Source of the DNA: an uncultured Brevibacillus sp.
GTDB lineage: Bacteria > Bacillota > Bacilli > Brevibacillales > Brevibacillaceae
DNA: 39,388 nt
Assembly (NCBI GenBank): GCA_946402065.1
Contig: CAMIVR010000038.1
Coordinates: 1-39,388, forward strand
Direction of reading: 5' to 3'
Numbering within the stretch: position 1 is the first letter of the stretch; each line of letters opens with the position of its first letter. Of the stretch, positions 15,043-35,571 are shown one piece after another. The position numbers and the translations under genes were made by a program. The notes under the pieces are model-generated. The model saw nothing but the letters and a program-made list of their open reading frames with translations. It made no database searches and was not told the origin of the DNA.

Positions 15043-15141
15043 AAAACACGGATCGAAGAAATGCAGGCGGCATCTAAATCAAATCGTACACTAGCGGAAT
15101 ACAGTAGTATAGATAATGAATGAGGAAAGCGAGGGTCATCC

Positions 15142-16714: not shown

Positions 16715-18523
16715 TCATGGCTTGATCCAGCCCTCCGTACCATTGAAAATAACTTGATACCAGCCCTTCGCCGCTTTCTGGATGGGAATCGTATCGCCTG
16801 CCGCTAGTTGGCCAATCACTGCGGAGCTGCCATCAGGAGCGGCATAGACATCGGTCACGTTTTTTAGCACAAGCTCTTTTGGAGTCGCCGAAGGGGGTGA
16901 CAATTGAGCGGAATCGTCAGTACCAGTTGCTTCGGCACTGCTCGGGTTTGCGCTGTCAGTATTTGAACCATCGGAATGCGCCTCGTCAGTCTGTACACCA
17001 TCAGTGTTCGCCCCTTCCAGCTCTGTCCCGTCAGGTTTGTCGGAATCACTGTCTGCTGGCTTTTCTTTATACGACAACTTTCCGTCGGCGAATGTATAGC
17101 TGGCGATTTGGTTTTCTCCTTCACTAAGCGGATTAACGATACTGAATAGCCCAGGCTTGTCGATGGCGAATCCGTCTGCTTCGATGTGAAAGAGCTCATT
17201 CAATTCTGTTCGGCCGATTTCCATGGCGAAGTAGGTTGACTTGCGGTTTTCAGAACGAGCTTCCACCAGCAAAACAGGTCGTCCCTGCTCGGTTATCTCA
17301 TCCGTGATGGAGATGCTTTTTACTTTCAGCTTCGGATCAATCGCCCCGGAGAGAAACCGCAGCGAACCGTTCTCCTGCTTTTCCGCATAATGCAGTTGAT
17401 TGTCCTCATCCACTGCTGCCACATAGAGTTGCAAGCCCCATTTGTTTTCGCCGTGTATGGCCGAGCGGAATCGCTTGTCGGGAAAGTGCTTCTGCAACAG
17501 CTGCAGCGGATCGTGCTTTTGCCAGCTCTCTTCTGCCGCAGCAATGTCATCCGCGGTATTTTTGTAGCGGTTCAGCGATTGCAGGAGCTGGATGGCCTTT
17601 TCATAGTCATTCCGGTTCAGATATGTACGGGCCCGTTGAAACAGGCTGTCAATCGTGTCGTCGATCAGCTTGATGACGTCAGAGCGAGTCGGCAGCAGGT
17701 CTTTCAGCTGCTCGTATGCTTTCGCAGCGCTGATAAATGCGTCAATATCGTCGCTTTTGCTCGCCTTTGCCAGCACTTTTTTACCGTATTGCTCAATCAA
17801 AGGCGGAAGCCAGTCTGCCTTAAGCCCGATTTGCCTATACGTGTTCAAGCTGCCCAACGCGAGCGATAGTACTTCGGAAAAATTGCGATTGTCGGCAATG
17901 TCGGCAAATTTTGCCCGGTCGTACTTTTTAAACAAATCGTTCAATTCATCCTGCTTGTTCCCCGCAAAGTATTCATCAGGGATGTCGAGCAGCGCACGCA
18001 CAAACGATTCGTCACGATAATTCTGCGCTTTCAGATTCGCTTCTGCCATGGCCGTCAACCGTTGCTTCTCCCGGGTAAACGAAGCGGCCAGCTTTTGTTC
18101 GACCTGGTAACGGGCGCTCGTCTCCTGAAAAAAGGCCGCCTGCTGCGGGCTTTGACTCGCATACTGCTGCTTGGCTGCCTGATAGTTTTTATACGTTTCC
18201 AGCAGTGACGGGAAGTCTGTTTGCTCACTGGCTGCTGTCGCCTGGTCTGCGAGTCTCTCCAGCGTTGCGCGAATGTCGCTGAGCGACGCCAATGCGGCAG
18301 TCACTGCCGGGTCTCCATAGGTGATGACAGCGTAGCGGTTCGCCTTGGCGAAAGACGCTTCCGCAAGCGGCCAGTTCCCTTGCTCGTAATACGCCTGCGC
18401 TTCTCTCGTATAAACCACTTGACGCAGACTGAAACCGAGCTTGAGGACGACGCCGCACAAAGCGAGGACGCAGAGCAAAAGCAGCAGGTTTCGTGTCAAC
18501 AGGGTTCTTTTATACAAGCTCAT
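16715..18523 (-). CDS. Membrane-anchored extracytoplasmic protein with helical repeats and C-terminal SH3b domain
   Basis: A 602-residue protein with one N-terminal membrane helix (about 11-31). A long helical, TPR-like region follows to about 330, including KANRYAVITYGDP and YEKAIQLLQSLNRYKN. A strand-rich domain comes next (about 345-465), then an acidic Ser/Asp/Thr linker (470-530). The C-terminal SH3b domain (about 535-602) ends with GWYQVIFNGTEGWIKP and probably binds the cell wall. It is the last gene of the leftward operon, and its start overlaps the upstream stop (ATGA). Its layout suggests that it anchors the tubulin/vWA machine to peptidoglycan. No named family is recognised for the middle. 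Confidence 0.75.
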   Translation of the reverse strand: MSLYKRTLLTRNLLLLLCVLALCGVVLKLGFSLRQVVYTREAQAYYEQGNWPLAEASFAKANRYAVITYGDPAVTAALASLSDIRATLERLADQATAASEQTDFPSLLETYKNYQAAKQQYASQSPQQAAFFQETSARYQVEQKLAASFTREKQRLTAMAEANLKAQNYRDESFVRALLDIPDEYFAGNKQDELNDLFKKYDRAKFADIADNRNFSEVLSLALGSLNTYRQIGLKADWLPPLIEQYGKKVLAKASKSDDIDAFISAAKAYEQLKDLLPTRSDVIKLIDDTIDSLFQRARTYLNRNDYEKAIQLLQSLNRYKNTADDIAAAEESWQKHDPLQLLQKHFPDKRFRSAIHGENKWGLQLYVAAVDEDNQLHYAEKQENGSLRFLSGAIDPKLKVKSISITDEITEQGRPVLLVEARSENRKSTYFAMEIGRTELNELFHIEADGFAIDKPGLFSIVNPLSEGENQIASYTFADGKLSYKEKPADSDSDKPDGTELEGANTDGVQTDEAHSDGSNTDSANPSSAEATGTDDSAQLSPPSATPKELVLKNVTDVYAAPDGSSAVIGQLAAGDTIPIQKAAKGWYQVIFNGTEGWIKP

Positions 18524-19476
18524 CCGGTCGATCTCCCTTGAAAAATGCCGTTAAAATCAGGGTCAAGCGAATAGCGCACGGAAATCACTTCTTCTGTCTG
18601 GGCGTAGAGCTCGGGCCATTCCTGGCGATGCAGGCTGACCAGCTTGGCCAAGCGCAGCAGCCGTTCTTTCGGCAGGAACTCCATGTATTCCAGGATGAGC
18701 AGCTGGTATCTGGAGACGTATTGTTTCATCCGCAGCGCTGCTCCGGTGACATTTACCAAAATTTCGTGGCCGTGTTCATGGCGGCGAATGTCGTCAATAT
18801 AACGAATGACGTAATCGAGTACAGCTTTTTTGACCAGAGCTGGCTTGACCTTCGCGACCTCGCGCAAGTAAGCGACGAAATGCTTGTCGTAACGGGACGG
18901 AATCAATGACTCCAGCTCAAGCTCCATGTCGTTGCGCAGCACAAAGTGACTGAGGCAATTCAGCTTTTGCCGTATGATGCGGTCGTTGAACAGGAAAAAG
19001 CCTACTTCGCGGAGCTTTTCATAAGCGGGCAAATACAGCTTCTCTTCCATGTCGACAGCGATGGTATCGAGGTGACGCTGCAGTGCTGCCTCGATTTTGG
19101 GTCGTTCGTTGCGCAGAAGGATGTAAAATTGGGCCGCCCGCTCATACACCGCCATCCGCTTGTGCACGAACAAAAACAGGCCGAGAATTGCAAGGCTGCC
19201 GACGATCGCGACAGTCAGCTCAACCGTTGTCCGGGCGCAAATAACAGCCAGGCAAAGCAGAATGACGAGCACCAGCAGTTGGATTTGGAAGCGCCGGCGG
19301 CTCACCGTAGACGAGAGCTGCTGCAGCGGCAGGTGCGGATGCTCGCGTCCGCATACCTCACAGTATTTGTACTGCAGAATGGAGTAGCTGTCGCAATGCT
19401 TGCAGTAGGTGACCCGCTGAAAGACATACTGCGTCTTCCCCGTTTTTTTAAATTGAATGGCGAGCTTTTTGCTCAT
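18520..19476 (-). CDS. Zinc-ribbon, two-helix membrane protein of unknown function
   Basis: A 318-residue protein. The N-terminus carries a four-Cys zinc ribbon (Cys25-x2-Cys28 and Cys39-x2-Cys42). Two adjacent membrane helices follow (about 66-81 and 85-104), then about 210 cytosolic residues, mostly helical and rich in Leu, Arg and Glu. AAGGAGG lies 9 bases before the ATG. It overlaps both neighbours: its start lies inside the 57-aa gene and its stop overlaps the SH3b gene. The hairpin topology puts both ends in the cytosol, where it could dock the tubulin-like or GTPase proteins encoded across the divergent promoter. The family is unknown to me. Confidence 0.72.
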   Translation of the reverse strand: MSKKLAIQFKKTGKTQYVFQRVTYCKHCDSYSILQYKYCEVCGREHPHLPLQQLSSTVSRRRFQIQLLVLVILLCLAVICARTTVELTVAIVGSLAILGLFLFVHKRMAVYERAAQFYILLRNERPKIEAALQRHLDTIAVDMEEKLYLPAYEKLREVGFFLFNDRIIRQKLNCLSHFVLRNDMELELESLIPSRYDKHFVAYLREVAKVKPALVKKAVLDYVIRYIDDIRRHEHGHEILVNVTGAALRMKQYVSRYQLLILEYMEFLPKERLLRLAKLVSLHRQEWPELYAQTEEVISVRYSLDPDFNGIFQGRSTG

Positions 19477-19621
19477 CTGCGTCTGCCTCCTTGTTCAGCA
19501 TGGCAAGAAAAAGCCGATCCATTTCCCCCTCGGTGAGGTATTGCTGCTTCTGTCTGCGCAGCAGAAGGGATTTTCCAGCGAGAAACAAGGCGGCCACAGC
19601 TAAAAAGAAATACGTAAACAT
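19448..19621 (-). CDS. 57-aa single-helix membrane peptide, first gene of the leftward operon
   Basis: A short frame on the minus strand runs from ATG 19621 to TAA at 19448, with a GGGGAG ribosome site 9 bases upstream. It overlaps the next gene by 29 bases, typical of coupled translation. The peptide has one N-terminal membrane helix (FTYFFLAVAALFLAGKSLLL), a basic stop-transfer patch (RRQKQQ) and a charged helical tail (EGEMDRLFLAMLNKEADADEQ). It would be missed by a 60-codon cut-off. The operon position and coding-like composition support it; its function is unknown. Confidence 0.6.
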   Translation of the reverse strand: MFTYFFLAVAALFLAGKSLLLRRQKQQYLTEGEMDRLFLAMLNKEADADEQKARHSI

Positions 19622-19940
19622 ACGAAAATCTCCCCGGTTTGAGTCGTGAAAAAATGTACGAAAATTGTCGAAGGTAAATTCTTACATGTAACTTAACGCG
19701 TCTCCTCTACGTATAACAGATAAGATGTACTGGCGTAATCTGCCAGTGTCGGCAAAATGCTTGCTATATAAATGAAGACGATGACAAGATCCGACAGGTT
19801 ACGTCAATGGAGCAATTTTTAAAGAACACACCAAGAAAAATATTGTAAAATAGAAACGTCAGAAGAAAACAGTCAATAACTAAAAAAACTTGAATAATTT
19901 TACTATATTATCTGTCATTATGAAAGTCGGAGGCCTACAT
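19622..19940. promoter_or_regulatory. Divergent control region of the tubulin/vWA cluster
   Basis: This 319-base AT-rich gap separates two outward-facing operons, so it must hold both promoters. Visible elements are a 10-bp palindrome TTACATGTAA (19682-19691) and an inverted repeat ACTGGC-N7-GCCAGT (19729-19747). On the plus strand there is also a weak TAAAAT -10-like element near 19846. I see no convincing -35/-10 pair for either side, so an alternative sigma factor or an activator is possible. Confidence 0.5.
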
Positions 19941-21725
19941 ATGGTTCAAAAAATGAGACATGCCGTCGTTTCTGTTCTTGCACTTATGCTGTTTATCATT
20001 CAGGCAGTCGCCGCCACAGGTGCTTTTACCCAGACGAATGCAGACAAGCTCGATGCCGTGCTCGTCGTCGACGTGAGCAATTCGATGTCGACGAGCGACA
20101 AGCACAACCTCAGCGGGGAAGCGATGAAAATGTTTGTCGATATGACGTCCCTGACGGGCAATAAAATCGGGGTCGTCGCCTACACGGACAAGGTCGAGCG
20201 GGAAAAAGCGCTGCTGCAGGTCAATTCTGCCCAAGACAAGGCGGAAGTCAAGGCATTTATCGACAGCCTGCAAAAAGGACCGTTCACGGATATTGCCGTC
20301 GGGGTAAAGGAAGCGGTCACGATCCTCGACTCCGGACACGATCCGGCCAACTACCCGTTGATCGTTCTGCTCGCCGACGGGAACAACTTCCTGAACAAAG
20401 CGGGCACGCGCACGCAGGCGGCGTCTGACCAGGAACTGCAGGAGGCGATCAGGAAAGCCCGGGACAAGGGCTACCCGATCTACACGATCGGTCTGAATGC
20501 TGACGGTCAGCTAAACAAGACCAGCCTGCAAAACATCGCGACCCAAACAAAGGGGAAATTTTTTGAAGCGAGTACGGCCGACAAGCTGCCGCAGATTTTG
20601 AGCGAAATTTTTGCCGACCACTTGAAGCTCAAGGTCGTGCCGATTACAAACCTGACAGGGAACGGGCAGTTCCAGGACGTGACGGTCAACATCCCGAATG
20701 CCAACGTGCTGGAAGCCAATATCTCGATCATGTCCGGCAAGCAAGTAGAGCTGAAGCTGTTCGCACCGGACGGCAAGGAAGTGCCGCTCACGTCCGGCAA
20801 TGTCCACCTGACCCGCTCTACTGCCTACTCGATGCTGAAAATCGTCCAGCCGCAGGAGGGCGACTGGAAGCTGCAAGTGAAGGGCGTCGACCGGGACAAA
20901 ATCGGCATCAGCATGATTTTCAACTACGATTTGCAGCTGCAAATGGCCCTGATCGCGGCCAAAGCATACCGGCCTGGCGACGTCGTTCCGATCAAGGCGG
21001 CGCTTACGACGAACGGGCAAAGCGTCGGTCAGGATCTGCTGAAGCAGATGAAAGCAACGCTGCTCGTCAACGATATCACCGCTCAGAAGCAAACCGAACA
21101 GCCGTTAACCGTCACGGGCGATGGCTTTGCAGGCAGCTTCACCGTTCCTGATGCCCACCGCTACGAGTTGAAGCTGAAGGCAGAGGGCGCCAGCATCTAC
21201 CGCGAGACACAGCCGGTAGTGGTCGATGCTTCTTCCGGAGCGGGAGCGGGGCCGTCCAGCGGAACCGCCAAGCCTGCCGGAGCCGGGCAAGCGCAGCCGT
21301 TTCCGTGGCTGCTGGTCGCAGGCGGCGTGCTGGCGGCAGCCGTCTTGATTGCTATTATTCTGTTTGTTTTGGCGAAAGTGAAAAAAGCGAACAAAGGCTT
21401 CATCGGCCAACTGGCAATTGAAATTTGTGATGAGGATACCGGCAGCAAGACGAGCCCGCAGTATAAAAAGTTGAGTACTTTCAAAGGCAAGGTAAAGCTG
21501 CATCAGCTGCTGCAGCTCGCACCCGAGATGCAGGAGACAGACAAGGTGCTGTTTCTGCCAGGCAAAAACGATACGCTGATCATCCAGAACCGCTCTACGT
21601 GTACGATTGAAAAAGCCGGGCGGGTGCTCGATGCCAGTCAGGGCAAAGAGCTGAAGAAAAACGATCGCATCAAGATTTTCCTGCAAAGCGTAAACAAGTC
21701 CATCTACGTCGATTACATTGTTTAG
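19941..21725 (+). CDS. Exported vWA-domain protein with C-terminal membrane anchor
   Basis: A 594-residue protein. The signal peptide covers 1-27 and the vWA domain about 36-215, with a complete metal site: Asp44-x-Ser46-x-Ser48 in VVDVSNSMS, Thr in GPFTDIAVG, and Asp in VLLADGNNF. Two beta-rich domains follow (about 215-430), then a Ser/Gly/Pro linker, a membrane helix (about 454-480) and a 110-residue cytosolic domain. The start is ATG 19941, preceded by GGAGG at 7 bases; the frame extends upstream without a ribosome site. It is the first gene of the rightward operon. It would present a ligand-binding vWA outside and a cytosolic tail to the tubulin-like protein encoded next. Confidence 0.88.
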   Translation: MVQKMRHAVVSVLALMLFIIQAVAATGAFTQTNADKLDAVLVVDVSNSMSTSDKHNLSGEAMKMFVDMTSLTGNKIGVVAYTDKVEREKALLQVNSAQDKAEVKAFIDSLQKGPFTDIAVGVKEAVTILDSGHDPANYPLIVLLADGNNFLNKAGTRTQAASDQELQEAIRKARDKGYPIYTIGLNADGQLNKTSLQNIATQTKGKFFEASTADKLPQILSEIFADHLKLKVVPITNLTGNGQFQDVTVNIPNANVLEANISIMSGKQVELKLFAPDGKEVPLTSGNVHLTRSTAYSMLKIVQPQEGDWKLQVKGVDRDKIGISMIFNYDLQLQMALIAAKAYRPGDVVPIKAALTTNGQSVGQDLLKQMKATLLVNDITAQKQTEQPLTVTGDGFAGSFTVPDAHRYELKLKAEGASIYRETQPVVVDASSGAGAGPSSGTAKPAGAGQAQPFPWLLVAGGVLAAAVLIAIILFVLAKVKKANKGFIGQLAIEICDEDTGSKTSPQYKKLSTFKGKVKLHQLLQLAPEMQETDKVLFLPGKNDTLIIQNRSTCTIEKAGRVLDASQGKELKKNDRIKIFLQSVNKSIYVDYIV

Positions 21726-21738
21726 GAGTTGAGAAGTG

Positions 21739-24700
21739 ATGAAAGCACTTGTCAGAGAACATATTCAGCAATTGGACGTCTCGCTTGGCGGCGGGATTGT
21801 CAGTGAAAAAATCCGCGTCAACACGATCGACAACCCGATGCTCGTCATCGGTCTTGGCGGTACCGGAATCGATGCGCTCTTGCGCCTGAAATACCAGATC
21901 AACAGACGGTTCAAGCTGCCGGAAGACGCCTTGTCGAGAAAGAAAAAGGAAAAGCCGGACAACATCGAATTCGTCGCCTTTGAAACGAATGAACACGACC
22001 GCAACAAGCGCTACAAAGGCATCGGACTCGATCCGATCACCGAGTTTGTGCTGCTCTCCAACCCGGAGATCGGCGGCGTGCTGCAAAACCGCAGCATTCT
22101 CGAGCCGTACATCACGGACTGGCTGTCGCCTGAGCTGTCGATTACAGACGGCATCAGCGGCGCTTCCGGCGTGCGGCAGGCAGGTCGTCTGCTGCTGTTT
22201 ACGAAAATTACGCAAGTCGTGCAGACGATTGAAAAGAAAATCAAAATGCTGACCGAGGGCACCAACAAAAAGCTGATGGTGTTTATTTTGACTGGTCTGT
22301 CCGGAGGGACGGGCAGCGGCTGCTTCCTCGACATCGCCTATATCGTCCGCGGGATTCTGGAAAAGGAATTCGGCAGCGCCGGTGTCGATCGGGTCAACAC
22401 GCTCGGCTATCTGTTCACCCCGGACGTCAACCTGTCCAACCGCAGCCTGAGCAGCCACACCCGCGACTACATCAGCAAAAACGGCTACGCTGCGCTCAAA
22501 GAGCTGGACTACTGGATGAACGTCGACGAGCGGATGGAGCGGTTCAAGCAGCAGTACGGCAATGTGCTGACGGTCAATTCGCCGATGCCGCCGTTCAATC
22601 TCTGCCATCTCATCTCTGCGACCAACCTCGAGGGCAAGCCGCTGGAGAATGCGTATGACTACTGCATGAACGTGACGGCGGAGAACATCACCAACTTCAT
22701 GGCCAACGAAGAAAAGCAGTCGGGCGAAGAGTTTGCCATCCACGACTACATCAGCAACATTCGCACGAACATCAACCAGATGCCGAAAGCGTACGCGGCC
22801 AACTACCAGTACAACGTCATCGGCGCTTCCTCAGCCGTACTGCCGATCGAAGAGATGACGACCTATTTGGCCTATCGCATGTTTAAAAAGATGGAAAAGA
22901 TGTTCGCCGTCTCCCCGACGCAGGAGGATGCGGAGAAGTTCGTCCGCAAGCTCGGGATCGACATCGATACGGTCGCCCGCAAATTTGAAGAGCGCGTGCC
23001 GGAGCCGATCCCGGGCTACGAGAACAGCGAACGGCTGAGCCATCACAACGTGATCAAGCAGCAGCTCGTCAGCATTGACAACGAACTGGAGCAAGGCTAC
23101 CTGGCCAAAGCGCGGGAAGCGTACATCAAGTGCAAAAAGCAACTGCCAGGCGAGCTTGTCGTCACGTTTTCCGAAATGATCACGAAGGTCTTTTTGCACC
23201 CGGAACAAGGCCCGTTTTACGCATCCCGGCTGATCCATTCCGACAAGGGCTTCTGCCTTTTAAAAATGATTTCCAGCTACGTCGAAAGCCTGAAGGCCAA
23301 CCTCGACAGCTTTCCGCGGGAGATCGAGGGCGCGCGGGAAAACGCCGATGAGAAGCTGGGCGATGCGAGAAGCGCCTTTATCGCCAAAGAAAAGAAGAAG
23401 AACGCCTACATCGAAGCGAAAATTCACGAATACCAGCTGCATGCCGATCAGGAAAAAATCGAGCAGATGATCGAGTTCTACGAGGATCTCTACCGGCTCA
23501 TCAACGACGAGAACAACCGGATTTACTACGTCTTTACGGAAATTCTCAACGCACTTAACCAAATTTTCGACAAGAATGGCGACATCCTGATCAACGGCGA
23601 AGAAGCTTCAGACGGGCACGGCAACAAAACCTACTACTGGAACATCGTCAACGTGCCGGATATCGCCGCTGTCGTCGGCAAGCTGATGGAGGAAAAGAGT
23701 GCCGAAGCTCTGATCCGCGAATTCACCGCGCAGCTGCTCAAACGCTCGGATAAATGGGTCAGAGAGCAGGAGGTCGACATCGTCAATTCCATCTCCGACT
23801 TTTTAACCGAGGAGTTCGGCGATCTCATCACCAAATCGATGGAGGAGTTTCTCCAGATCAAATACGGCAATGACGAGACGATTGAGCGGATCGTCGAGCG
23901 CACGATCGCCAACAAGCTCGATGACGAAGCGATCCCGGTGTTTCATTTGAGCAACAGCACCGGCAACCTGCACTTCCCGTCGTGGGGCTTCGTCTCTGTC
24001 CCGGTGAAAGCGCCGGGCATTCTAAAAGGGATCAAGAACTACCAGAACACCTCGATCAGCGGTTCGCGCTTTACGGTCAAAGAGAGTGAAGTAAAAAACC
24101 GGATTTTCTGGCTGAATACGAAAAACGGCATTCCGCTGTTTGTCTACACGCCGCTGAAGGTGTACGAGGAGAGCTACGAGCGGACGATTTTGGACAAAGA
24201 GGGCATCGGCCGCCATCTCGTCCAGACCGAGAAAAACAACTGGACCTACCTGCCGTCGCCAATCCCGCAAAAATCGTGGGGAGAAACGTACACCAACGAG
24301 CGGGTCAAAGCGTACAACAACCGTGTCCGGCAGCTGTTTGCCCGTGGGCTGCAGTATGGCTGCATCGCGGAAAAAGGCGTGGACAGCCAGACGAGCAGCC
24401 GCTATGAGTGCGTGCTGACGAAGCCGTTTGAACTCAACGCGTTTCTGTCCGGATACAAGCTGTCGGCCGACCCGGCGAAGCCGAACGTCGGCGAGACGAA
24501 GCGCTGCCTGAGCGAATTGAAGGGCTTCCTGGCAAATGGCCTGGAGCGCGTCGCGGTCAGAGATATTTTCGGCAGCATCAACGAAGAAATGGCACAGGAG
24601 AACCTCATTCGCTCTCCTGAGCTGATCCGCCTGTTGACCGATGAGGTGCGCAAATACGAAAGCATCGAGAACAAGGTGAAGGAACTGGAGGGCATGCTCG

Positions 24701-25128: not shown

Positions 25129-25149
25129 AGGGCTCTTTCTGGAGGAACG

Positions 25150-27801
25150 ATGAAGGAATTGGTAGAGCAGTTCGCACATGATTACGATCTCGATCTGGAG
25201 CGGCACATGTATCGCGGAGATGAACAGCGGCGGATCAACAACCCGGTGGTCTTCCTCTTCCTCGGCGATAAGTCGCTTGAGGCACTGCAAGCGATTGGCG
25301 AATTGAACAGGCGGAAGTGGAACAACAGCGCAGGCGTAGTGTATCTGCACCTCTACACCGGCGAGACGGTGGAGCGCGACAACCTCTTCAGCTTCCGCTT
25401 GCCCGAGCCGCCTGCAGAGAGACAGACGATGCGGCAGTCGATGGCTAAGCTGTTTTATCAGGAGGAGCAAAAACTGTACGAACTGAATCGGACGATCAGG
25501 CAAGCGTGCAGCCGCATCGCTGAATTCGGCGGGATGTTTGCAACGAACCAGCGGCTTAACCTGTCCGTCGTGACACAGGTGGATGATGTCGCGAATGTAC
25601 TGCTGCCGGAGCTTAGTCTGCTGGTGCAGACGGTTTGCCGGGAGTCGTTCAAGCACGTACAGCTCGATTTGTACGCGTTGCTCAGAGAAAAGAACAGCGG
25701 CGGCGAGTTCGGCTATTCGACCGCCCTGGGGGTCAGCTTCCTCAAGGAGCTTGACCGCTATCAACGCGATGACTATCACTTTCGGGCCAACCTGCAAGTG
25801 ACGGAAGACCGGATCAAGCTTCCTGTCGAGCATGCGCCCGGACCGCTCTTTACCCTTGCTTACCTGTTGAGCGACAAGGACGAGCGCGGGCTCTTCACGC
25901 GAGACAGCATGGCCGACAACTACGAACTGATCTGCAACCTGAACCTGCTGAAAAACCGAGGTCAACGGCCAGCAGCCGTTGAGGAAGCGAGGAGCTATGC
26001 CGGGCCGGGCGGCTACGAAGATCGCTCGGCAACCGACACGGGGCGCGATGACAGCGCCAGTTGGCGCCATAAAGGCGAGAACGCACGCTTGGGCGACAGG
26101 TGGCTTCAAAAAAGCGAGAGCGACCGCCAAAGCGCCAGTTTGAGCTACAAAAGCGAGAGCGACCGCCAGAGCGACGGTTTACGCTACAAAGGCGAGAGCG
26201 ACCGCCAGAACGCCAGTTTGAGCTACAACAGTGAGAGCGACCGCCCAGCAGTCGACTACGATCGCTACAAAAGCTTTCAGGAGCAGAATGAAACGTACAA
26301 CGATGTCCAGTTTATGCGCAACATCACGTCGCGAACGGGCAAGCCGGCGTTTGCATCTGCCGGTTTAGCCAAGGTGACGCGTCCGAACGCAACAATCGCG
26401 GCGACCGTCCTCGCCTGCTTTACCGGCGAAATCATGCAGCGGCTCAAACGTTATGCGCCCATTGACAAAAGGGAAGCGCTGGAGCTGCTTGCGCTCGACG
26501 CTGCCGCACTGCATCGGCAAGTAGTCAGCCTTCTGCCGGAAGATGACAGGCTGGAGGAAATGACTGGGCTGATGAGCGATAAAATCAGCTTCGGCGAGCT
26601 TCGCCAGATGACGCTCAGACAGGCGGAAGAAGCGCTTTACCGCGATGGCAGCGAGCGATTTTTCCAGGCGAACTTCGTCGAGGTGGCGCAACGTCGCCTG
26701 GAGTCGAGCGAGCTGCAAGAGCAGCTTGCCGAGCGGCTGCTGCACAGCGTCATGGAGAGCGAGCGATTCGGGCTGTACCACGCCTACGCCTGGACGAATG
26801 AGCACGACAGCGAGCGGGGCTTGATTGCCGAGCTGCACAAGCTGGGCAAGGATACCGCCAGACAGCTCGACACAGCCAAGGCCGAGCTGGCGGAGCTGTA
26901 CCAGCTGAGAGCAGAGCATTTGCCAATGAAAAAAGGCGGATTGTTTACGAGCGACAAAGAGCGGGTGAAGCAGTTTGTCCGCAGCTTTTTTCAACATGTG
27001 TATGGCAAGAAGTACGAGATTCTCGGCTTGAGCATCCAGCAGCAATTGCTGCTCAAATACGAGCGCGTGCTGACAGCCCTGCATGGGCAACTCAACCGGA
27101 AAGTAACGGAGCTGGCCGAGCTTGAGCAGATGCTGAACGGCATCGCCGCGGAGCGCATCCATGCGTCGAGCGATCAGTTCGGCCAAAACATGAAAGAGTA
27201 TTATCAGACTGTCGTGCACGAGATCGTCCAGGATCTGGAAGCGAAGTGGGGCGCGGCCTTTTACTACGAGCCCCGCTTTCTCGGCAATGCCCGGGAATTC
27301 ATCCACAGCAGCACACGCGAGCTGCTGCAGCGCTTGCTGGAGATCTGCCGCAAAGAAGTTTTGACGTATCCGCAATTTCAGCTAACCTTCGAGGAAGAGC
27401 TGTTGCAGCGGGCAAATGTCTCCGTCCGGTACGAGCAACGCACGATTCTCTCCAAAGAGGAGCTGTTTAAAGAGCTGGCGCGTTCGCTTGAAGAAAATGC
27501 AGCGATTCATCTCGAAGTGTTCCAGTATATGCAAAAGCATCGCTATGAAGAGAAGTACTTCTTCGCTGACTTTGCCAGTGATTTTGTCCGCTATGCGTTT
27601 GCTTCCGAACGGGGAACGCGAACGTATAAGCTCGGCTGCATCGAGGAAAAGCGCAGCAGCGGAATCGAAAAGCTCCGGCTCATGGGCGGATTCCATACGG
27701 ATGACCTGATGTACGTCCACAATGGACAAAAATACTACGATTCGTATATCGCCAACGGCTATCAATTTCACGCAGCAAGCAGTCAGGCCGATGTCGATTA
27801 A
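25150..27801 (+). CDS. Degenerate tubulin-like paralogue (pseudo-tubulin) with tandem repeat insert
   Basis: An 883-residue protein with no obvious family. By hand it aligns with its upstream neighbour: INNPVVFLFLGDKSLEAL (29-46) with IDNPMLVIGLGGTGIDAL, and VVTQ...LLPELSLLV with the segment holding GGTGSG. GVSFLKELDRY matches GYAALKELDYW, PGPLFTLAYLLS matches MPPFNLCHLIS, and the block before the C-terminal half also matches. The nucleotide-loop glycines are gone: residues 143-149 read QVDDVAN. A 13-residue tandem repeat lies at about 296-374, between aligned blocks. The C-terminal half is helical. GGAGG lies 4 bases before the ATG. I infer a non-GTPase partner subunit, like a pseudo-enzyme in a tubulin heterodimer. 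Confidence 0.68.
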   Translation: MKELVEQFAHDYDLDLERHMYRGDEQRRINNPVVFLFLGDKSLEALQAIGELNRRKWNNSAGVVYLHLYTGETVERDNLFSFRLPEPPAERQTMRQSMAKLFYQEEQKLYELNRTIRQACSRIAEFGGMFATNQRLNLSVVTQVDDVANVLLPELSLLVQTVCRESFKHVQLDLYALLREKNSGGEFGYSTALGVSFLKELDRYQRDDYHFRANLQVTEDRIKLPVEHAPGPLFTLAYLLSDKDERGLFTRDSMADNYELICNLNLLKNRGQRPAAVEEARSYAGPGGYEDRSATDTGRDDSASWRHKGENARLGDRWLQKSESDRQSASLSYKSESDRQSDGLRYKGESDRQNASLSYNSESDRPAVDYDRYKSFQEQNETYNDVQFMRNITSRTGKPAFASAGLAKVTRPNATIAATVLACFTGEIMQRLKRYAPIDKREALELLALDAAALHRQVVSLLPEDDRLEEMTGLMSDKISFGELRQMTLRQAEEALYRDGSERFFQANFVEVAQRRLESSELQEQLAERLLHSVMESERFGLYHAYAWTNEHDSERGLIAELHKLGKDTARQLDTAKAELAELYQLRAEHLPMKKGGLFTSDKERVKQFVRSFFQHVYGKKYEILGLSIQQQLLLKYERVLTALHGQLNRKVTELAELEQMLNGIAAERIHASSDQFGQNMKEYYQTVVHEIVQDLEAKWGAAFYYEPRFLGNAREFIHSSTRELLQRLLEICRKEVLTYPQFQLTFEEELLQRANVSVRYEQRTILSKEELFKELARSLEENAAIHLEVFQYMQKHRYEEKYFFADFASDFVRYAFASERGTRTYKLGCIEEKRSSGIEKLRLMGGFHTDDLMYVHNGQKYYDSYIANGYQFHAASSQADVD
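26035..26271 (+). repeat. 39-bp (13-residue) in-frame tandem repeat, about six units
   Basis: Four clear units of 39 bases run from 26113, encoding SESDRQSASLSYK, SESDRQSDGLRYK, GESDRQNASLSYN and a diverged SESDR unit ending in RYK. Two older, weaker units (26035-26073 and 26074-26112) precede them, again 13 codons each and ending in Lys. The period is a whole number of codons, so copy changes would keep the reading frame. Confidence 0.85.
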
Positions 27802-27822
27802 AAAGAGAAAGGAGGCGACGGC

Positions 27823-29109
27823 ATGAGTCGAAGAAAAATCAATTGGCTTCTGGTTTTGTTGAGCATGGTCGGCGGAACGGTTGGCTTTATTGTCGGCGAG
27901 CTGATTCTCGCTTATTTCAATGACCACCTGCCGCACTGGTTGTTGATGGGCATCTATTTTGGCCAGTACGCACTGTTTGTCGGCCTGTTTTGCCTGTTTG
28001 CCGAAATGATATCGCCTCATCTGAACGGAACCGGTTGGAAACAGCGCTACCTCGGTTTTTCCTGGAAAATGCTGATCCCCAGTACGCTGGTCATGCTGTT
28101 TGTTGCCGGATCCCTGTTCCAGGTTGTTTACGGACTTGATTTTGGCGGGAAGAAGCCCGCGAATGCCAATGATATCGTCATGCTGCTCGATGTTTCCGAC
28201 AGCATGCACGAGACGGACCCTAATCATCAACTGTTTAAAGCGGCGGCTGATGTCATCCGCAATATGGATGCCGGCAAACGGGTAGCAATTATCGTCTTTA
28301 ATGATCAGGCAAGTGTGCTGCAGCCGCTGGTGCCGTTGGCAAATCAGGAAACCAAAGACAAGATCATTCAGCTATTGAACGAATATCCGGGACCTTCAGG
28401 CGGGACTGACATAGGCGCTGCCTTGCGTACCGCGATGGATCACATGCAGCAAATGCAAAGTGAGCGGAGCATGCTGATTCTGATGTCGGACGGCTACAGT
28501 CAATTAGACCTGAATGCTTCACTGCAGCCGTACAAGCTGAACCAAATCGCGATAAATACCGTCGGCATCAGCAATGTGGAAGCCAAGGCGATTGACTTGC
28601 TCAAGACGATCGCCAAAGAGACAAACGGCAGCTACTTCTCTGCGGAAAACGCCGATCAGCTCTCAACCATCTTCGGGCAAATCTATCGGTTGAGCCAGCA
28701 GGATCACCATCTGGTCGGACCGCGGCACGGGCTGGCAGCAGACAGCGGCATATACGGCGGGCTGCGGATCGCGTTTGTGACCATTCTCGGCGGGCTCATC
28801 GGGCTATCGCTGGGACTGTTCTTTGACAACAAATACTTGGCCAAAAGCTTTTCCATCGGTGGCATTGCGGCTGGCCTGATCGCCGGCTTGATCCTTGAGT
28901 TCGGCCTTGGTCGTTCGCTGCTGCCGGACTTGCTTGTACGCCTGCTGGCCGATTTGGTGCTGGCGCTTATTCTATCCGTGTTTACGGCGCTTGTCGCCAT
29001 ACAGGAGCGGAGTACAGGCTCAGCACAAGGGAGCTTTACCAGAGGCCGCTTTGCTTCAGGCAGCGCGCGCTCCGATAAACAAGCGAGCAGCAGTCGATTT
29101 GATGCGTAG
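27823..29109 (+). CDS. Polytopic membrane vWA-domain protein
   Basis: A 428-residue protein with three N-terminal membrane helices (about 8-30, 43-62 and 85-104). A vWA domain follows (about 117-295), and three more helices (about 303-325, 335-357 and 363-388), then an Arg/Ser-rich tail. The metal site is complete: Asp123-x-Ser125-x-Ser127 in LLDVSDSM, Thr in SGGTDIGAAL, and Asp in ILMSDGYS. With a basic N-terminus inside, three helices place the vWA domain outside and the basic tail inside. AAAGGAGG lies 9 bases before the ATG. It is the second outside-facing vWA of the operon and might pair with the first or share its ligand. Confidence 0.87.
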   Translation: MSRRKINWLLVLLSMVGGTVGFIVGELILAYFNDHLPHWLLMGIYFGQYALFVGLFCLFAEMISPHLNGTGWKQRYLGFSWKMLIPSTLVMLFVAGSLFQVVYGLDFGGKKPANANDIVMLLDVSDSMHETDPNHQLFKAAADVIRNMDAGKRVAIIVFNDQASVLQPLVPLANQETKDKIIQLLNEYPGPSGGTDIGAALRTAMDHMQQMQSERSMLILMSDGYSQLDLNASLQPYKLNQIAINTVGISNVEAKAIDLLKTIAKETNGSYFSAENADQLSTIFGQIYRLSQQDHHLVGPRHGLAADSGIYGGLRIAFVTILGGLIGLSLGLFFDNKYLAKSFSIGGIAAGLIAGLILEFGLGRSLLPDLLVRLLADLVLALILSVFTALVAIQERSTGSAQGSFTRGRFASGSARSDKQASSSRFDA

Positions 29110-29183
29110 GCTATCACCGCTCAAGCGTTCATCGCCATAAAAAGCTCAGTTTCGTTAGCCCTATCGTTAGGAGTTTGATTGAT

Positions 29184-29822
29184 GTGAAATGGGTTGAAGA
29201 AAGCAATCCGGCGCACTTTATACGGGATGTAGGGTTTCACATTCAGGAAGAGCAATGTGTCATCACCTGGCATTGGCCTGCCGAAATCCCCTTTGTCTAT
29301 GTTCACAAATCACTGCCCGAACAGGCATTTGATCTCGCTCAACTGAGCGACACGCACCTGCGCCTGTACACGCGGGAGGAATACAAAGCGCTCGGCGGCT
29401 ATCGGGAAACGATCGAGGGCATCGGCCGCTACGCGTATCGCATCTTTCCGGGCACACTGGACAATGGTGCGCCTGTCATGCTGATTCAGGGCAATCAGGA
29501 CAATGTCATCGTCGTCAATACCGGAAAGACGAAAATCTACTACAGCATCAAACAGAAAAAGCAGTTGTTTGGCAAATACAAATCGGTGCAAATCCACATA
29601 TTTACCGAGCTGGCCCTGCCCAAAGACGTGCTCTGCTATGTGAAGAAGGAAGGCGCGGCGCCTATGCGCAAAGAAGATGGCACCCAGTACGCGTTTATCA
29701 ACGACTTTGCACCTGGGCGAAACATTCTGCCTGAGATCGAGGTTAAGAAAAATGATTACATCCGGATTTTTTTCACTGACGGGCGGAAGTATGGAGAAAT
29801 CTATGAACTTATTCCCGAGTAG
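29184..29822 (+). CDS. Conserved-looking 212-aa protein of unknown function in the tubulin/GTPase operon
   Basis: A soluble protein of 212 residues with no signal peptide or membrane helix. It is rich in beta-strand patterns (QCVITWHWP, DNVIVVNTGKTKIYYSI, VQIHIFTELAL), so a beta-sandwich is likely. I recognise no family. The start is GTG 29184, with AGGAG 10 bases upstream; a TTG at 29175 is too close to that site. It lies 11 bases before the GTPase gene and surely belongs to the operon. It may bind the GTPase or the vWA cytosolic tail. Confidence 0.65.
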   Translation: MKWVEESNPAHFIRDVGFHIQEEQCVITWHWPAEIPFVYVHKSLPEQAFDLAQLSDTHLRLYTREEYKALGGYRETIEGIGRYAYRIFPGTLDNGAPVMLIQGNQDNVIVVNTGKTKIYYSIKQKKQLFGKYKSVQIHIFTELALPKDVLCYVKKEGAAPMRKEDGTQYAFINDFAPGRNILPEIEVKKNDYIRIFFTDGRKYGEIYELIPE

Positions 29823-29833
29823 GAGGGACTATC

Positions 29834-31102
29834 ATGTTATCTTTTTTCAAAAATATCTTTGAAAAAAAGCCGGTTCAAAAAGAGAGACTCCCTTTCTATG
29901 ATATTGTCTGCCCGTATTGCTTCTCAAAATTTCCGCCTGACCAGGTTGTCTTTCGCGCTACCCATCATCGCGACGATGACGAAGATTACGCGCTCCAGGA
30001 GGATGAAATCTTAAACCGCTTCCGGGACAAATTCGGCCTGGATTCCATCGATGAGATTGAAGCGGTGCTGGACCCGGCGCTGGTGCCGGAAGAAAACAAA
30101 ATCTTCGTCGACAACGTGCTGGCCGGACTGACGGACCGCTATGGGATGGTGACGAAAAAAAGACTGTGTCCCAAATGCCACAACGAACTGCCGATCTCTG
30201 CCGGGAAGGCGCCAAGCAACATCATCTCGATCGTCGGCGCTTCACAGGTAGGCAAGTCTGTGTACATGACCTCGCTGATTCATACGCTGCAAAAAATGAC
30301 TGCGAGCAACTTTCATGCGGCCTGCATGCCATTGAACGCCGAAATCAGCAGGAAGTTTCGCGAAAACTACGAGCAGCCTCTCTTTGAACAGGGAAGCCTG
30401 CTGGATTCGACGCAAAAAGAAAAGCGGCAGGAGCCATTTATCTTTCAATTTATTTTTAAGGACGGCCAGCAGGCACCGCTCATCCTCGTCTTTTTCGACG
30501 TCGCCGGCGAGGGCATGGTAGATCGCGATTACCTCGATATTTACGCTGCCCATATCAAAAATTCGGCAGGGATTCTGTTTCTCGTCGACCCGCTGCAAAT
30601 CAAGACGATCCGGGACAAAATCATGATCAACCTGGGAGACCGTCCAGGAGAGTTCACAGCGCGGTACGACGAGCCGCGCGATGTCGTCATCAGCCTGTTT
30701 GAAAACTTTATCGGCTACGAACAGCAGAGCAAGACAGATATACCGACGGCAATCGTCTTGACCAAAAGCGACATGCTGCACTCGCTGAAAGACGAGGACG
30801 GAGAATACATCAAGTCGAATAGCAACGTGTTTCAAAATGTCGTTCACAAAGAGTATTTCAATTTGGCTGAATTCGAAAATATTAACGGCGAAATACGCCG
30901 GTTTATCGAGAAGGTAGATCGGCCGTTTAAAGATGCATTGGAGGTTTACTTTACCAATATCGCCTACTTCGCTGTCTCGTCGCTGGGCAGCAACCCGGTC
31001 AACCAGAAGGTCAGTGGCGTCGTCACACCGATCCGGGTGGATGAGCCATTCATCTGGTTGCTGCATGAACTGGACTACATCGAGGGGAGAGAGCGATCGT
31101 GA
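29834..31102 (+). CDS. TRAFAC-type GTPase with split zinc ribbon (DO-GTPase2-like)
   Basis: A 422-residue cytosolic GTPase. The Walker A loop is GASQVGKS (135-142, Lys141), switch II is DVAGEG (Asp222-x-x-Gly225), and the base-specificity motif is TKSD (310-313, Thr in place of the usual Asn). Before it lie two Cys pairs, CPYC (about 26-29) and CPKC near residue 114. They look like one zinc ribbon split by an acidic helical insert of about 80 residues. The family resembles the Double-GTPase 2 type that I recall from predicted conflict or membrane-associated systems. AGGAGGG precedes the ATG at 7 bases. Its stop overlaps the next gene's GTG, so the two proteins are made together. Confidence 0.83.
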   Translation: MLSFFKNIFEKKPVQKERLPFYDIVCPYCFSKFPPDQVVFRATHHRDDDEDYALQEDEILNRFRDKFGLDSIDEIEAVLDPALVPEENKIFVDNVLAGLTDRYGMVTKKRLCPKCHNELPISAGKAPSNIISIVGASQVGKSVYMTSLIHTLQKMTASNFHAACMPLNAEISRKFRENYEQPLFEQGSLLDSTQKEKRQEPFIFQFIFKDGQQAPLILVFFDVAGEGMVDRDYLDIYAAHIKNSAGILFLVDPLQIKTIRDKIMINLGDRPGEFTARYDEPRDVVISLFENFIGYEQQSKTDIPTAIVLTKSDMLHSLKDEDGEYIKSNSNVFQNVVHKEYFNLAEFENINGEIRRFIEKVDRPFKDALEVYFTNIAYFAVSSLGSNPVNQKVSGVVTPIRVDEPFIWLLHELDYIEGRERS

Positions 31103-33855
31103 AGCAGCCCATCTTGCAACAGTACTACACGCGTGCCCGACAGGGGATTTTCCGCTCCACAGAAGGGTACGATACGATCGCCAAATCAGACAGACTCGAT
31201 AACAACTTTATCAAAAAGACGCTGCACCCTTTTTGCGGCTACGATGTGCCAAAGGAGCTGCAAAAGCGCAGCGAAAAAGATTTGAGCAAGTATCCGGAAT
31301 CCGTCGTGTTCTTTCACGGCGAATCGGGCGAGCTTATCCTCGGGCGCAGCGTCTATGTCGGTGCTGACTTCACGGGCCAGCGCAACACGTTTTTTTCCCA
31401 TAACTACGTCATTCCAGCCGAACGCCGGGAAGAGTTTCTCCAGCAGCCGGAGAAAATTTTCGCAGCAGGGGGCTTTGTCGACCGGTGTGACGACGCGATG
31501 GGAAAGAGCCTGCCGGAGCTGGCAGAGATTCCGCTTGAACGCTCCGGCAAAGCTTCTTTGAGTTCAACAAGCGATGCCAAAGCGTTTCTCGCGCAGGTGG
31601 GCATTGATGAAAAACGGTTCATGCAGCTGCTGTACGCCGTCATGACGTCAGTCGGCAGCAAGAAAAAAGTATACATTACACTGGATGCCGAACTGGCAGT
31701 GGCCGCTGTCCAGGCAAGGCAGCTGCTCGGCATCTTGTTTAGCGCGCTCCCGTACGAGATGCGCCGCCATTTCGGCTTTATTACCTACTGCGGCGAGCCG
31801 GAAAGCAAGAAGTACATCAATGTGATGTTTGTCGAAAACGGCAGCATTCGCGCCGGCGATGCCCAACTGGACAAGGAGTTTCTGTTTGACTTTCCCAATC
31901 AGCGCTTCGTCAACACGGAACTGCCCGGAAGTGATCACACCTATCTGTCGTTAGCCTGGAACTACCTGCAAGAGCCGGAGCTGCTGAAACAGTTTTACGC
32001 CTTCGCCGAGGAAGTGCTGGCAGGCGCAGACACAGCGATCAGCCTGCGTGTCGCCACCTACTACGAGCTGGCCGCGCTCTACCTGGTCGAGAAAGGCAGC
32101 GACGCCCTGTATTCCCGCAACAAGGAAGGGATCCTGCGAATCATCCTGGAGTACTTGGGCAATGAGCGCTTGCGCGAGAAACGCCGCTTGCATGAGCTGT
32201 TTATGGGCTTGTTTCGCGAGGAGAGCCACATGCTCTCCGGCAAAAACCTTCCTTCGGCTGATTTGGTCAAACAGTTTGTCAGCTACTATGCATTGATAGC
32301 GGCAGACAGCAGTCAGTCGAACAAGATCGCTGTCTATTTGCTGGATGTGCTCGTCAAAGCGAAGGATGCGGGAGCCGCGCAGCTCGTCGCCGATGTCTAT
32401 AAGCTAATTCTGGACAATGAAAAACTGAGCGCTCTGATTTTTACCACCATTTTTCGGCACGAACAACTCGTCAAGCCGCTCTTCGAAGAGTTCCTGATTC
32501 AGCGGGTATCCGGCCTGTCCAGTGTCAAAAGCGTATTGCAAGAGATTGCGTTTTGGTCAAACACAACGGCAAATGCGGTGAAAAACAGGTATTTTCAACG
32601 GACAATCCAGGAAAAGCTGTGCCGCTTGCTCGAGGCAGAACGTGAGCCTAGCGCTGCCCTGATGGAGCTGCATCAATATTTTGCCGGCTTCGAGCTGAAC
32701 AGTGATTTCGCCGAGAGTGTGATCAACGAGGTCGACAAGTGCTTCTTGAAAAACCTCGACTTGGGGTCCATCACAAAAGAGGTTTACAATCAGATCCTAG
32801 CAATTCTTAGCGACAAGCCGCAAATTTTTTTCCAGCAGCTGTCCCGGGAAAGCAGTAAAAAATGCGATCTCCTCTTGTATCTTGCCGATTTGCAGGAAAA
32901 GAGCGACGCGCTCTATCACGAAGGCTATTTTAAAGGATATAGCGCGGAGGATGTCGATCTGCTGCAGCAAATGCTGCGCAATGTGCTCTGCAAGTCAGTA
33001 GAGCGGAGCAACTTTTTGGCGATCACCTCAGCCTTTTACAACCCGGATTCTCCGGTAACGCAGCCCTACCGGTTCTCCGAAATGCTGCAATACGTCGGGC
33101 GGTATGGCGGTCCACAGGCGAGCAGTGATTTTATCATCTGGTCGCTGAAGCGCTCGCTGTTTTTTACCGGAAGAAAATTTGTTCCTGCCTATCGTCAGGC
33201 GATCAAGCACCACTTTTTGCATGTCGATCCGGAAGCGCTGCGAGACAAGATCAGCCGAAAAATGTGGTTCGGGCTCAAGCATCCGGAGCTGCGCAAGCTC
33301 GTGGAAGAGGTAAGAGACGAGAACAGCAACGGAGCCGTCCGCTTTTTCCGCAGGTATATGGACAAGCTCCTGATTGGGCTGGCTGCCGTTGTTTCCGTTG
33401 GCACAGTCGGCTGGGTGCTCTTCCTGACAATCGGCGCTCAAAATCCCCCTGCGGAACCAGTGCCGACCGTGAATGACATTCCGCATGATGCGAACACTCC
33501 GGCGACTCCTGGCAAGCAGCCCGACGGAGCAGACGGTACGCCAACAGGTGACCAATCCGGTGTAAATGACGGCGGGAATCCGAAAAACACTGACAGTAAA
33601 GGAGAGACCGGAGCAGGAACAGATTCCAATCCGGGAACTCAAAACGGTGAGAATAATCCTGCCCAGCCAGGGACAACAGGAACTCAGCAGACGGGGAACC
33701 ACGGTGTGAATCAGGTGCAGACTGGATCACAAAACACGCCCCAACAGTCAACAAAGAATGCTAATCAGGGCAATGGAGCTGCAAAGAACGAGAACTCGCA
33801 GCCAAAGACGAATAAGCAAAATACTTCAAATGGGCAGTCCAAACAAAAGCCGTAA
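31099..33855 (+). CDS. GTPase-associated (GAP1-like) protein with membrane helix and low-complexity exterior tail
   Basis: A 918-residue protein. The N-terminal 240 residues (opening with LQQYYTRARQGIFRSTEGY, and with VFFHGESGELILGRSVYVG and a THALI-like SHNYV) resemble the GAP1-N domain paired with DO-GTPases. A long alpha-helical domain fills about 260-750. One membrane helix lies at about 757-779. The last 138 residues are Gly/Asn/Thr/Gln/Pro-rich and would be outside the cell, perhaps threading the wall. Start GTG 31099 overlaps the GTPase stop (GTGA), with AGGGGAG 9 bases upstream. It probably controls or tethers the GTPase at the membrane. It is the last gene of the rightward operon. 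Confidence 0.78.
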   Translation: MKQPILQQYYTRARQGIFRSTEGYDTIAKSDRLDNNFIKKTLHPFCGYDVPKELQKRSEKDLSKYPESVVFFHGESGELILGRSVYVGADFTGQRNTFFSHNYVIPAERREEFLQQPEKIFAAGGFVDRCDDAMGKSLPELAEIPLERSGKASLSSTSDAKAFLAQVGIDEKRFMQLLYAVMTSVGSKKKVYITLDAELAVAAVQARQLLGILFSALPYEMRRHFGFITYCGEPESKKYINVMFVENGSIRAGDAQLDKEFLFDFPNQRFVNTELPGSDHTYLSLAWNYLQEPELLKQFYAFAEEVLAGADTAISLRVATYYELAALYLVEKGSDALYSRNKEGILRIILEYLGNERLREKRRLHELFMGLFREESHMLSGKNLPSADLVKQFVSYYALIAADSSQSNKIAVYLLDVLVKAKDAGAAQLVADVYKLILDNEKLSALIFTTIFRHEQLVKPLFEEFLIQRVSGLSSVKSVLQEIAFWSNTTANAVKNRYFQRTIQEKLCRLLEAEREPSAALMELHQYFAGFELNSDFAESVINEVDKCFLKNLDLGSITKEVYNQILAILSDKPQIFFQQLSRESSKKCDLLLYLADLQEKSDALYHEGYFKGYSAEDVDLLQQMLRNVLCKSVERSNFLAITSAFYNPDSPVTQPYRFSEMLQYVGRYGGPQASSDFIIWSLKRSLFFTGRKFVPAYRQAIKHHFLHVDPEALRDKISRKMWFGLKHPELRKLVEEVRDENSNGAVRFFRRYMDKLLIGLAAVVSVGTVGWVLFLTIGAQNPPAEPVPTVNDIPHDANTPATPGKQPDGADGTPTGDQSGVNDGGNPKNTDSKGETGAGTDSNPGTQNGENNPAQPGTTGTQQTGNHGVNQVQTGSQNTPQQSTKNANQGNGAAKNENSQPKTNKQNTSNGQSKQKP

Positions 33856-33950: not shown

Positions 33951-34284
33951 TCTTATTCTCAAAACAGATAAACAAGCAAATCTTTTGAGAATAACCAAAA
34001 CGTGGAAAACGCGCAACTCTGAACCGACCTATTATTATTTTTGGGAAAAGTCAGCTTTTTATTACGAACATTTCAGCCTTGGTACAGGAATTGCTGTTAC
34101 AATCGTGTTAGCAGGCATGCTGCGCAAGGGCGTTCGCTCAGACGAAAGTCCACGCTATCTGTCTGCGATCAGCTTTTAACCAAGAGAAGGGAAGTGGAAT
34201 TTACATTGAAAAAGCATGGAGTAGGTTCAGAACAACTGAGCGGTTTCACAAGAGCAAAAACAAATGAACGGGGAGGACGACGAT
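33951..34284. other. Intergenic stretch with no supported gene
   Basis: About 330 bases lie between the operon terminator and the saccharopine-dehydrogenase-like gene. I see short open frames without ribosome sites and no RNA structure that I recognise. It must hold the promoter of the next gene, but I found no convincing -35/-10 pair. Confidence 0.5.
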
Positions 34285-35493: not shown

Positions 35494-35521
35494 TATATGG
35501 TAAAAAATACGACAGCTGAGA

Positions 35522-35555
35522 AAGGATGGGTATAAAACACATCCAGGCCATCCTT
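35522..35555 (+). terminator. Weak terminator-like hairpin after paralogue 1
   Basis: AAGGATGG (35522-35529) pairs with CCATCCTT (35548-35555), but the bases after it are not T-rich. It may be partial or structural. Confidence 0.4.
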
Positions 35556-35571
35556 CATCATTCATCATTTC

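Follow-up and report, generated by a model that had tools for sequence, protein, structure and literature searches.

Organization of the Gene Cluster

The window analysed here, a stretch of 39,388 nucleotides from an uncultured Brevibacillus sp. (assembly GCA_946402065.1, contig CAMIVR010000038.1), is part of a 5.84-Mb draft genome and carries a cluster of ten open reading frames over about 17 kb, three on the minus strand (16715-19621) and seven on the plus strand (19941-33855; Table 1). The plus-strand genes encode two vWA proteins, an active-type tubulin, a second tubulin-like protein (hereafter pseudotubulin), a protein of 215 amino acids (aa), a double-GTPase (DO-GTPase) and a GAP1 protein, and the minus-strand genes encode a 57-aa membrane peptide (p57), a zinc-ribbon membrane protein and a TPR protein with an SH3b end (SH3-TPR). 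This cluster is one co-inherited unit, present in many Brevibacillus and Paenibacillus. To judge from the available parts of the two source papers, its seven plus-strand genes are the published Firmicutes tubulin theme of the GAP1-N2 systems (Kaur et al., 2020, PMC7159879), whose basis is the FtsZ-like-1 family (Makarova and Koonin, 2010, PMC2875224).

The original prediction had described ten genes in two outward-facing operons with tight spacing, and all of the reading frames were recovered at the positions given for them. Four-base overlaps join the GTPase and GAP1 genes as well as the SH3-TPR and zinc-ribbon genes, the zinc-ribbon and p57 genes overlap by 29 bases, and the remaining gaps in the plus-strand operon measure 11 to 68 bases. 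The first vWA protein more likely starts at ATG 19941, which is preceded by GGAGG, than at TTG 19890. For the tubulin, ATG 21739 is the probable start, giving 1129 aa. Pfam cut-offs, applied to all ten proteins, named six of them: SH3-TPR (via its SH3b part), the two vWA proteins, the tubulin (Tubulin_2), the DO-GTPase and GAP1 (GAP1-N2/GAP1-M). The proteins of 57, 215 and 883 aa had no Pfam match over the cut-off, and the 318-aa protein had a weak zinc ribbon only. A scan for promoters and terminators found sites no commoner than in shuffled sequence, and no promoter class was readable.

Table 1. Features of the cluster in the window (positions 1 to 39,388) and genes inserted in related loci; membrane placements are predicted.
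Feature	Coordinates	Strand	Evidence
SH3-TPR, 602 aa, one N-terminal membrane helix, C-terminal SH3b; optional	16715..18523	-	SH3_3 3e-10, weak TPR
Membrane protein with a zinc ribbon and a helical cytosolic part, 318 aa	18520..19476	-	CxxC..CxxC in 80/80 rows
p57, 57-aa single-helix membrane peptide	19448..19621	-	One helix in 63/66 rows; 65/80 loci
Intergenic region between the two divergent operons	19622..19940	.	No excess of consensus promoter sites over shuffled sequence
First vWA protein, with vWA and beta domains outside, a second membrane helix and a cytosolic end of ~115 residues	19941..21725	+	VWA 4.2e-16
Active-type tubulin, FtsZ-like-1/Tubulin_2 family, 1129 aa	21739..25128	+	Pfam Tubulin_2 E=9.7e-79
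Tubulin T1 loop GLGGTG	21850..21867	+	Sequence, alignment
Tubulin T4 loop GLSGGTGSG	22294..22320	+	Sequence, alignment
Pseudotubulin, 883 aa; tubulin fold predicted, GTP loops absent	25150..27801	+	Fold and profile matches
DDPxNV-type conserved motif replacing T4 loop	25573..25611	+	Asp146 in 80/81 rows
Repetitive low-confidence insert, long in window copy	25972..26250	+	pLDDT <50 at residues 275-367
Helical insert within second tubulin domain of pseudotubulin (our reading)	26449..27543	+	Helices between strands 401-410 and 799-848 in model
Second vWA protein: exterior vWA flanked on both sides by membrane helices	27823..29109	+	VWA 1.3e-22
Soluble protein of 215 aa without Pfam family, at the position of the published FNIII component	29175..29822	+	79/80 loci
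DO-GTPase, two N-terminal CxxC pairs	29834..31102	+	DO-GTPase1 1.3e-7, DO-GTPase2 5.4e-7
GAP1 (N2 type), membrane helix near end and polar exterior tail	31099..33855	+	GAP1-N2 7.8e-48, GAP1-M 7e-28
GNAT acetyltransferase genes, Paenibacillus	L112:15940-16593, L115:11196-11750, L123:16046-16600, L133:16053-16601	+	74-94% alike

Co-inheritance and Gene Order

Gene order was followed in two sets of loci: the 80 best of 286 relatives, which belong to Brevibacillus and Paenibacillus apart from two records named Bacillus sp., and 20 separately fetched loci, which overlap with the former set. Presence was counted in 39 genomes of the window's family and in a sample of 398 genomes of the phylum. The loci used beside the window were, for the smaller alignments, 11/19 (A1), 15/19 (A2), 16/19 (A3), 16/18 (A4) and 11/19 (A8), and, for the larger alignments, 80/80 (A5), 63/79 (A6) and 21/79 (A7). 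Topology calls are hydropathy stretches counted per aligned row, with orientations inferred from flanking charges.

Both the co-occurrence and the conserved order that the original prediction proposed as a check were found. Order is kept, beyond what chance would give, in 19/20 loci of the smaller set, the twentieth having a distant Tubulin_2 only; among these 19, SH3-TPR was not found in one and the 57-aa gene was not found in six. In the larger set, where order is kept with few exceptions, the tubulin, the pseudotubulin and the first vWA protein are present in 80 loci, the zinc-ribbon and 215-aa proteins, the GTPase and GAP1 in 79, p57 in 65 and SH3-TPR in 50. The second vWA protein is present in 79, the eightieth (L134) being a cross-match at a contig end, which was dropped from later alignments; this locus was also excluded from the gap scan, which thus covered 79 loci. 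At the level of whole genomes, full Tubulin_2, the zinc-ribbon protein and GAP1-N2 occur in the identical 29/39 family genomes and are jointly absent from the other ten. Across the phylum, 7 of the 398 genomes strongly hold all three together, and the zinc-ribbon profile has ten matches, seven of full length in these same genomes and three weak and partial. Four loci from phylum genomes in which the domain families occur apart were searched with the component profiles: L138 has a vWA protein beside its tubulin, L136 has a tubulin only, two frames of L139 are DO-GTPase-like, and nothing matched in L137.

The flanks of the cluster vary, with any one flank family common to at most 12/80 loci (left-flank frames in 77 loci, right-flank frames in 55), and the components diverge at different rates. 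Median identities between the window and the Paenibacillus-type loci, with rows covering less than half of a protein excluded, are 71% for the tubulin and the GTPase, 52% for the first vWA protein, 45% for the 215-aa protein, 44% for the second vWA protein, 41% for the pseudotubulin, 31% for GAP1, 30% for the zinc-ribbon protein, 28% for p57 and 25% for SH3-TPR. The pairwise distances of eight components correlate with r 0.83-0.97 (79 rows) or 0.81-0.97 (71 Paenibacillus-type rows), which fits joint inheritance.

The Tubulin and the Pseudotubulin

The tubulin signature GLSGGTGSG reported by the original prediction lies in the T4 loop of the 1129-aa protein, to which Pfam assigns a predicted tubulin domain. 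The T1 and T4 loops are both intact in 81/81 aligned rows, and the FtsZ-like 1 loop GGGTG(S/T)G is recognizable, reading [S/A]GGTGSG, together with the vWA and GTPase neighbours. Hydrophobic stretches are absent in 79/81 rows, and a PDB sequence search with the tubulin gave nothing of note. This protein, the component chosen for the search, matched none of 50,697 phage records; in 72,556 plasmid records it had three distant matches only, at about 24-25% identity. The three are large plasmids of the Thermus/Meiothermus group (NC_014213.1, NZ_CP021131.1 and NC_019387.1, a NZ_CP019387-like record).

Since the pseudotubulin has no Pfam match over the cut-off (best E 0.095), profile and structure work was needed. 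Its best fold matches are the CetZ and TubZ tubulins, the CetZ match covering residues 30-870, and its profile match has E=4.2e-5; the second protein is thereby predicted to adopt a tubulin fold. The alignment shows that the GTP loops are lost and that a T4-type loop is absent. Fold matches and alignment together support the call of a pseudo-tubulin made from the sequence. Asp146, in the motif that stands in place of the T4 loop, is also present in 68/68 rows of a database set, and there is no hydrophobic stretch in 78/81 rows. CetZ and TubZ, unlike the pseudotubulin, retain their GTP loops and are not known to have a large helical insert. The placing of this insert inside the second tubulin domain is our own reading of the model. 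Comparison of the two cluster proteins with hhalign gave E=0.1 for the C-terminal, 0.071 for the middle and 0.0061 for the N-terminal parts; because of the first of these values, a late strand-helix pattern shared with the active tubulin remains a guess.

The repetitive insert of the window copy, scored below 50 on the predicted local distance difference test (pLDDT), is rich in KSESDRQ-type repeats, and 15 other aligned rows are mostly gap there. Some homologues of the pseudotubulin (P0056, P0057, P0067 and others) are labelled 'Transcription initiation factor TFIID' in public databases, a name that looks wrong because the predicted fold is that of tubulin. In two loci, the tubulin and pseudotubulin genes are separated by 1.2 and 1.7 kb (L126 13387-14617 and L132 13387-15124) and, among the frames listed, these gaps hold no plus-strand frame of at least 100 aa.

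The vWA Proteins, the GTPase, GAP1 and the 215-aa Protein

The first vWA protein has two hydrophobic stretches in 78/81 rows and the second has five or six in 79/80, for which several membrane helices and an exterior vWA domain are predicted from hydropathy and flanking charges. The two complete vWA metal sites claimed from the sequence stand for their DxSxS part, which is the part examined (81/81 rows of the first protein and 80/80 of the second). In the window, the first vWA protein has an MG2-like match (2.9e-4) below the cut-off, while 12/12 rows match MG2 and Hemicentin GBD and YtkA is not among the families listed (25 of 30); for these searches and for PADLOC, the protein was entered from the codon after its ATG. 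A kinship of its cytosolic end with the 215-aa protein was considered, and hhalign gave no support for it.

The assignment of the GTPase to the TRAFAC class is confirmed by DO-GTPase1 and DO-GTPase2 matches over the Pfam cut-off and by the glutamate in Walker B (DxAGE in 80/80 rows). The P-loop and the two CxxC pairs are likewise present in 80/80 rows and TK.D/NK.D in 74/80, and no row of the 80 has a hydrophobic stretch. GAP1 lies downstream of the GTPase in 79/80 loci and ends, in 79/80 rows, with a last helix followed by a tail of 46-364 residues, whose polar character was read in the window. The 215-aa protein has no hydrophobic stretch in 78/80 rows; none of 22 rows matched FNIII, and a PDB sequence search gave nothing of note.

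The Minus-strand Arm and the Flanking Genes

The original prediction regarded the zinc-ribbon protein, the 57-aa peptide and the SH3b protein as parts of this version of the system. This view is retained for the first two (79/80 and 65/80 loci), while SH3-TPR is optional (50/80). The zinc-ribbon protein adjoins the operon in 79/80 loci and has one hydrophobic stretch in 47/80 rows and two in 29/80. Its model (pLDDT 93.5) combines a helical hairpin and arm with the ribbon; at E<=0.001 Foldseek returned no match, its hits being scattered helical repeats and designs, and a PDB sequence search returned weak zinc-ribbon matches only. The left arm is absent beside the operon in L109; a zinc-ribbon homologue from Paenibacillus contaminans probably lies elsewhere on the same contig. 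In Paenibacillus anaericanus (L064:6615-7742, minus strand), p57 and the zinc-ribbon protein are fused in one open frame of 376 aa.

SH3-TPR has one helix in 47/51 rows. Its proposed wall-binding end matches SH3_3 in the window and, according to a simple motif, an SH3b-like end is limited to 7/51 copies, namely that of the window and six from Brevibacillus. Where SH3-TPR is missing from the 80-locus set, the next minus-strand frames of at least 250 aa (20 loci with such a frame) are unrelated to it. In L044 (16567-18412, plus strand), the gene is split over two overlapping frames and therefore looks broken or mis-sequenced; this copy was excluded from the SH3-TPR profile and from alignment A4.

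Next to the left operon of the window, and convergent with it, are two adjoining LysM and glycosyl hydrolase 18 (LysM-GH18) proteins (13783-16554), which were not found in the short flanks of the other loci of either set. On the other side (34264-38222), a solute-binding protein gene, whose substrate we would guess to be a polyamine, stands between two saccharopine-dehydrogenase-like genes. None of the window's four flanking genes was found in the 20 loci, and one of them was found in 1/80. Elsewhere in the same genome (contig C12, 37542-40890), two open frames contain three further VWA matches.

Relation to Published Systems

It had been overlooked in the original prediction that the plus-strand set is already in print: in its available parts, the study by Kaur et al. 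(2020) describes a Firmicutes tubulin theme of GAP1-N2 systems composed of two coiled-coil tubulins, two vWA proteins, a DO-GTPase and a polar-tailed GAP1. The present cluster has in common with it two tubulin-domain proteins, two vWA proteins (one multi-membrane-spanning and exterior), the DO-GTPase and a polar-tailed GAP1-N2 protein. The same source describes an FNIII protein as a component of GAP1-N2 systems generally and a first vWA protein fused to YtkA, neither of which domains was detected here in the rows and families examined, and it mentions SH3 domains, in those parts, only as GTPase fusions. Three of the proteins found here, namely p57, the TPR/SH3b protein and a separate membrane protein with a zinc ribbon, go without mention in them.

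The FtsZ-like 1 family, for which an available portion of an earlier study reported vWA/GTPase operons and included Brevibacillus brevis in its alignment (Makarova and Koonin, 2010), shares with our tubulin a long helical part that follows an FtsZ-like domain, as well as vWA and GTPase partners. In contrast to the operons of that study, no OmpA family is among the Pfam matches of the window. Similarity to the C-terminal domain of tubulin was not detected by its authors, whereas in our pseudotubulin model elements in tubulin order follow the helical insert. The class has thus been predicted twice from genomes; neither paper, in its available parts, mentions the loss of GTP loops in the second tubulin or the minus-strand arm.

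A Putative Membrane-tethered Assembly

A tentative reading, which we favour at a probability of roughly 0.45, is that the cluster is a GAP1-N2-type tubulin/double-GTPase unit that builds a membrane-tethered assembly from an active-type tubulin and a partner predicted to be a GTP-dead tubulin. In the predicted topology, both vWA domains, the GAP1 tail and the TPR/SH3b protein face outward, and the two tubulins, the GTPase, the 215-aa protein and the GAP1 core lie inside. The exterior vWA domains would bind a wall or surface ligand, and the signal would cross by way of the two vWA proteins (in the first, through its cytosolic end) and the GAP1 helix. The switch would consist of the DO-GTPase and GAP1. 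Once this switch is on, the active tubulin would assemble. The pseudotubulin, a fixed subunit that would not hydrolyse GTP, may cap, nucleate or pattern the assembly; membrane anchoring would fall to the 57-aa peptide and to the zinc-ribbon protein by means of its helical arm. Local envelope remodelling or repair may be the output. As for the single trans-envelope machine that was originally proposed, the co-inherited unit, the cytosolic tubulin-like and GTPase proteins and the predicted exterior vWA domains stand, and the machine itself is suggested by hydropathy and gene linkage. A bolder and rather doubtful version is a tubulin heteropolymer, in which the active tubulin would be obligately paired with a full-fold GTP-dead pseudotubulin, each interrupted by a long helical insert, switched by the GTPase and read out through vWA receptors.

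Several points weigh against such an assembly. The 80 loci are the best of 286 relatives, and this sample is therefore tilted toward close kin; shared descent alone would yield the same distance correlations. Contact between the tubulin and the pseudotubulin is suggested by their co-occurrence alone, and filaments of the active tubulin are putative. For the pseudotubulin, Foldseek gave no match below E 0.001, and helical pore protein chains are also among its matches (prob <=0.6). A GNAT acetyltransferase gene lies between the pseudotubulin and second vWA genes in 4/79 loci (Pfam on three of the four), so that the composition is not wholly fixed. A search of the open-licence literature found no experiment on this system. 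Finally, in other members of the phylum Tubulin_2 and GAP1-N2, taken as domain families, can occur without each other: Tubulin_2 is found in 14/398 genomes (three full without GAP1-N2, four partial or weak) and GAP1-N2 in 10/398 (two over the cut-off without Tubulin_2, one weak). The independent occurrence of components that would have refuted the original prediction was, in contrast, not found for the three orthologues in the whole genomes searched. It is this separation of domain families that would favour neighbours with separate jobs, the second protein being no partner of the tubulin; given the near-fixed order, the all-or-none presence and the match of the pseudotubulin to a tubulin fold, we consider this very improbable.

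The main rival follows from the proposal, in the available parts of Kaur et al. (2020), that the whole class functions as immune or conflict systems: the GTPase/GAP1 switch would sense invasion, and tubulin multimers would act as effectors. The same gene set and this class-level inference, the patchy all-or-none presence (29/39 genomes), the fast divergence of GAP1, the zinc-ribbon protein and SH3-TPR (median 25-31%) compared with the tubulin and GTPase, and the GNAT insertions all agree with such a function. However, composition is nearly fixed, and in plus-strand operon gaps of more than 350 bases (79 loci) no extra gene family was found apart from GNAT, the other plus-strand frames of at least 80 aa being not alike one another. 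PADLOC models matched none of the ten proteins, which is no disproof, no nuclease, protease or pore family exceeded the Pfam cut-off among them, and the tubulin has no phage match and only the distant plasmid ones. An immune function is thus possible, if somewhat unlikely.

A role in sporulation or cell differentiation, for example in engulfment or growth of the forespore envelope, appears improbable. Brevibacillus and Paenibacillus are both spore-forming, and the LysM-GH18 proteins adjoin the cluster in the window. However, these neighbours are not conserved in the short flanks of other loci, the three marker proteins are missing from 10/39 family genomes, and the promoter scan yielded no class. 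Between the immune and the envelope readings, sequence alone is insufficient to settle the matter, and envelope assembly is favoured.

Implications

The pairing of live and dead tubulins renders the idea of one machine testable. A near-fixed gene set with a live and a dead tubulin and a near-constant membrane protein points to a defined complex that may be expressed and deleted. If the heteropolymer were true, it would be a prokaryotic counterpart of the two-subunit tubulin lattice with one subunit permanently inert. More generally, the cluster bears on whether bacteria employ paired tubulins in envelope functions other than division, and on the choice between an immune and a structural role for the GAP1-N2 class.
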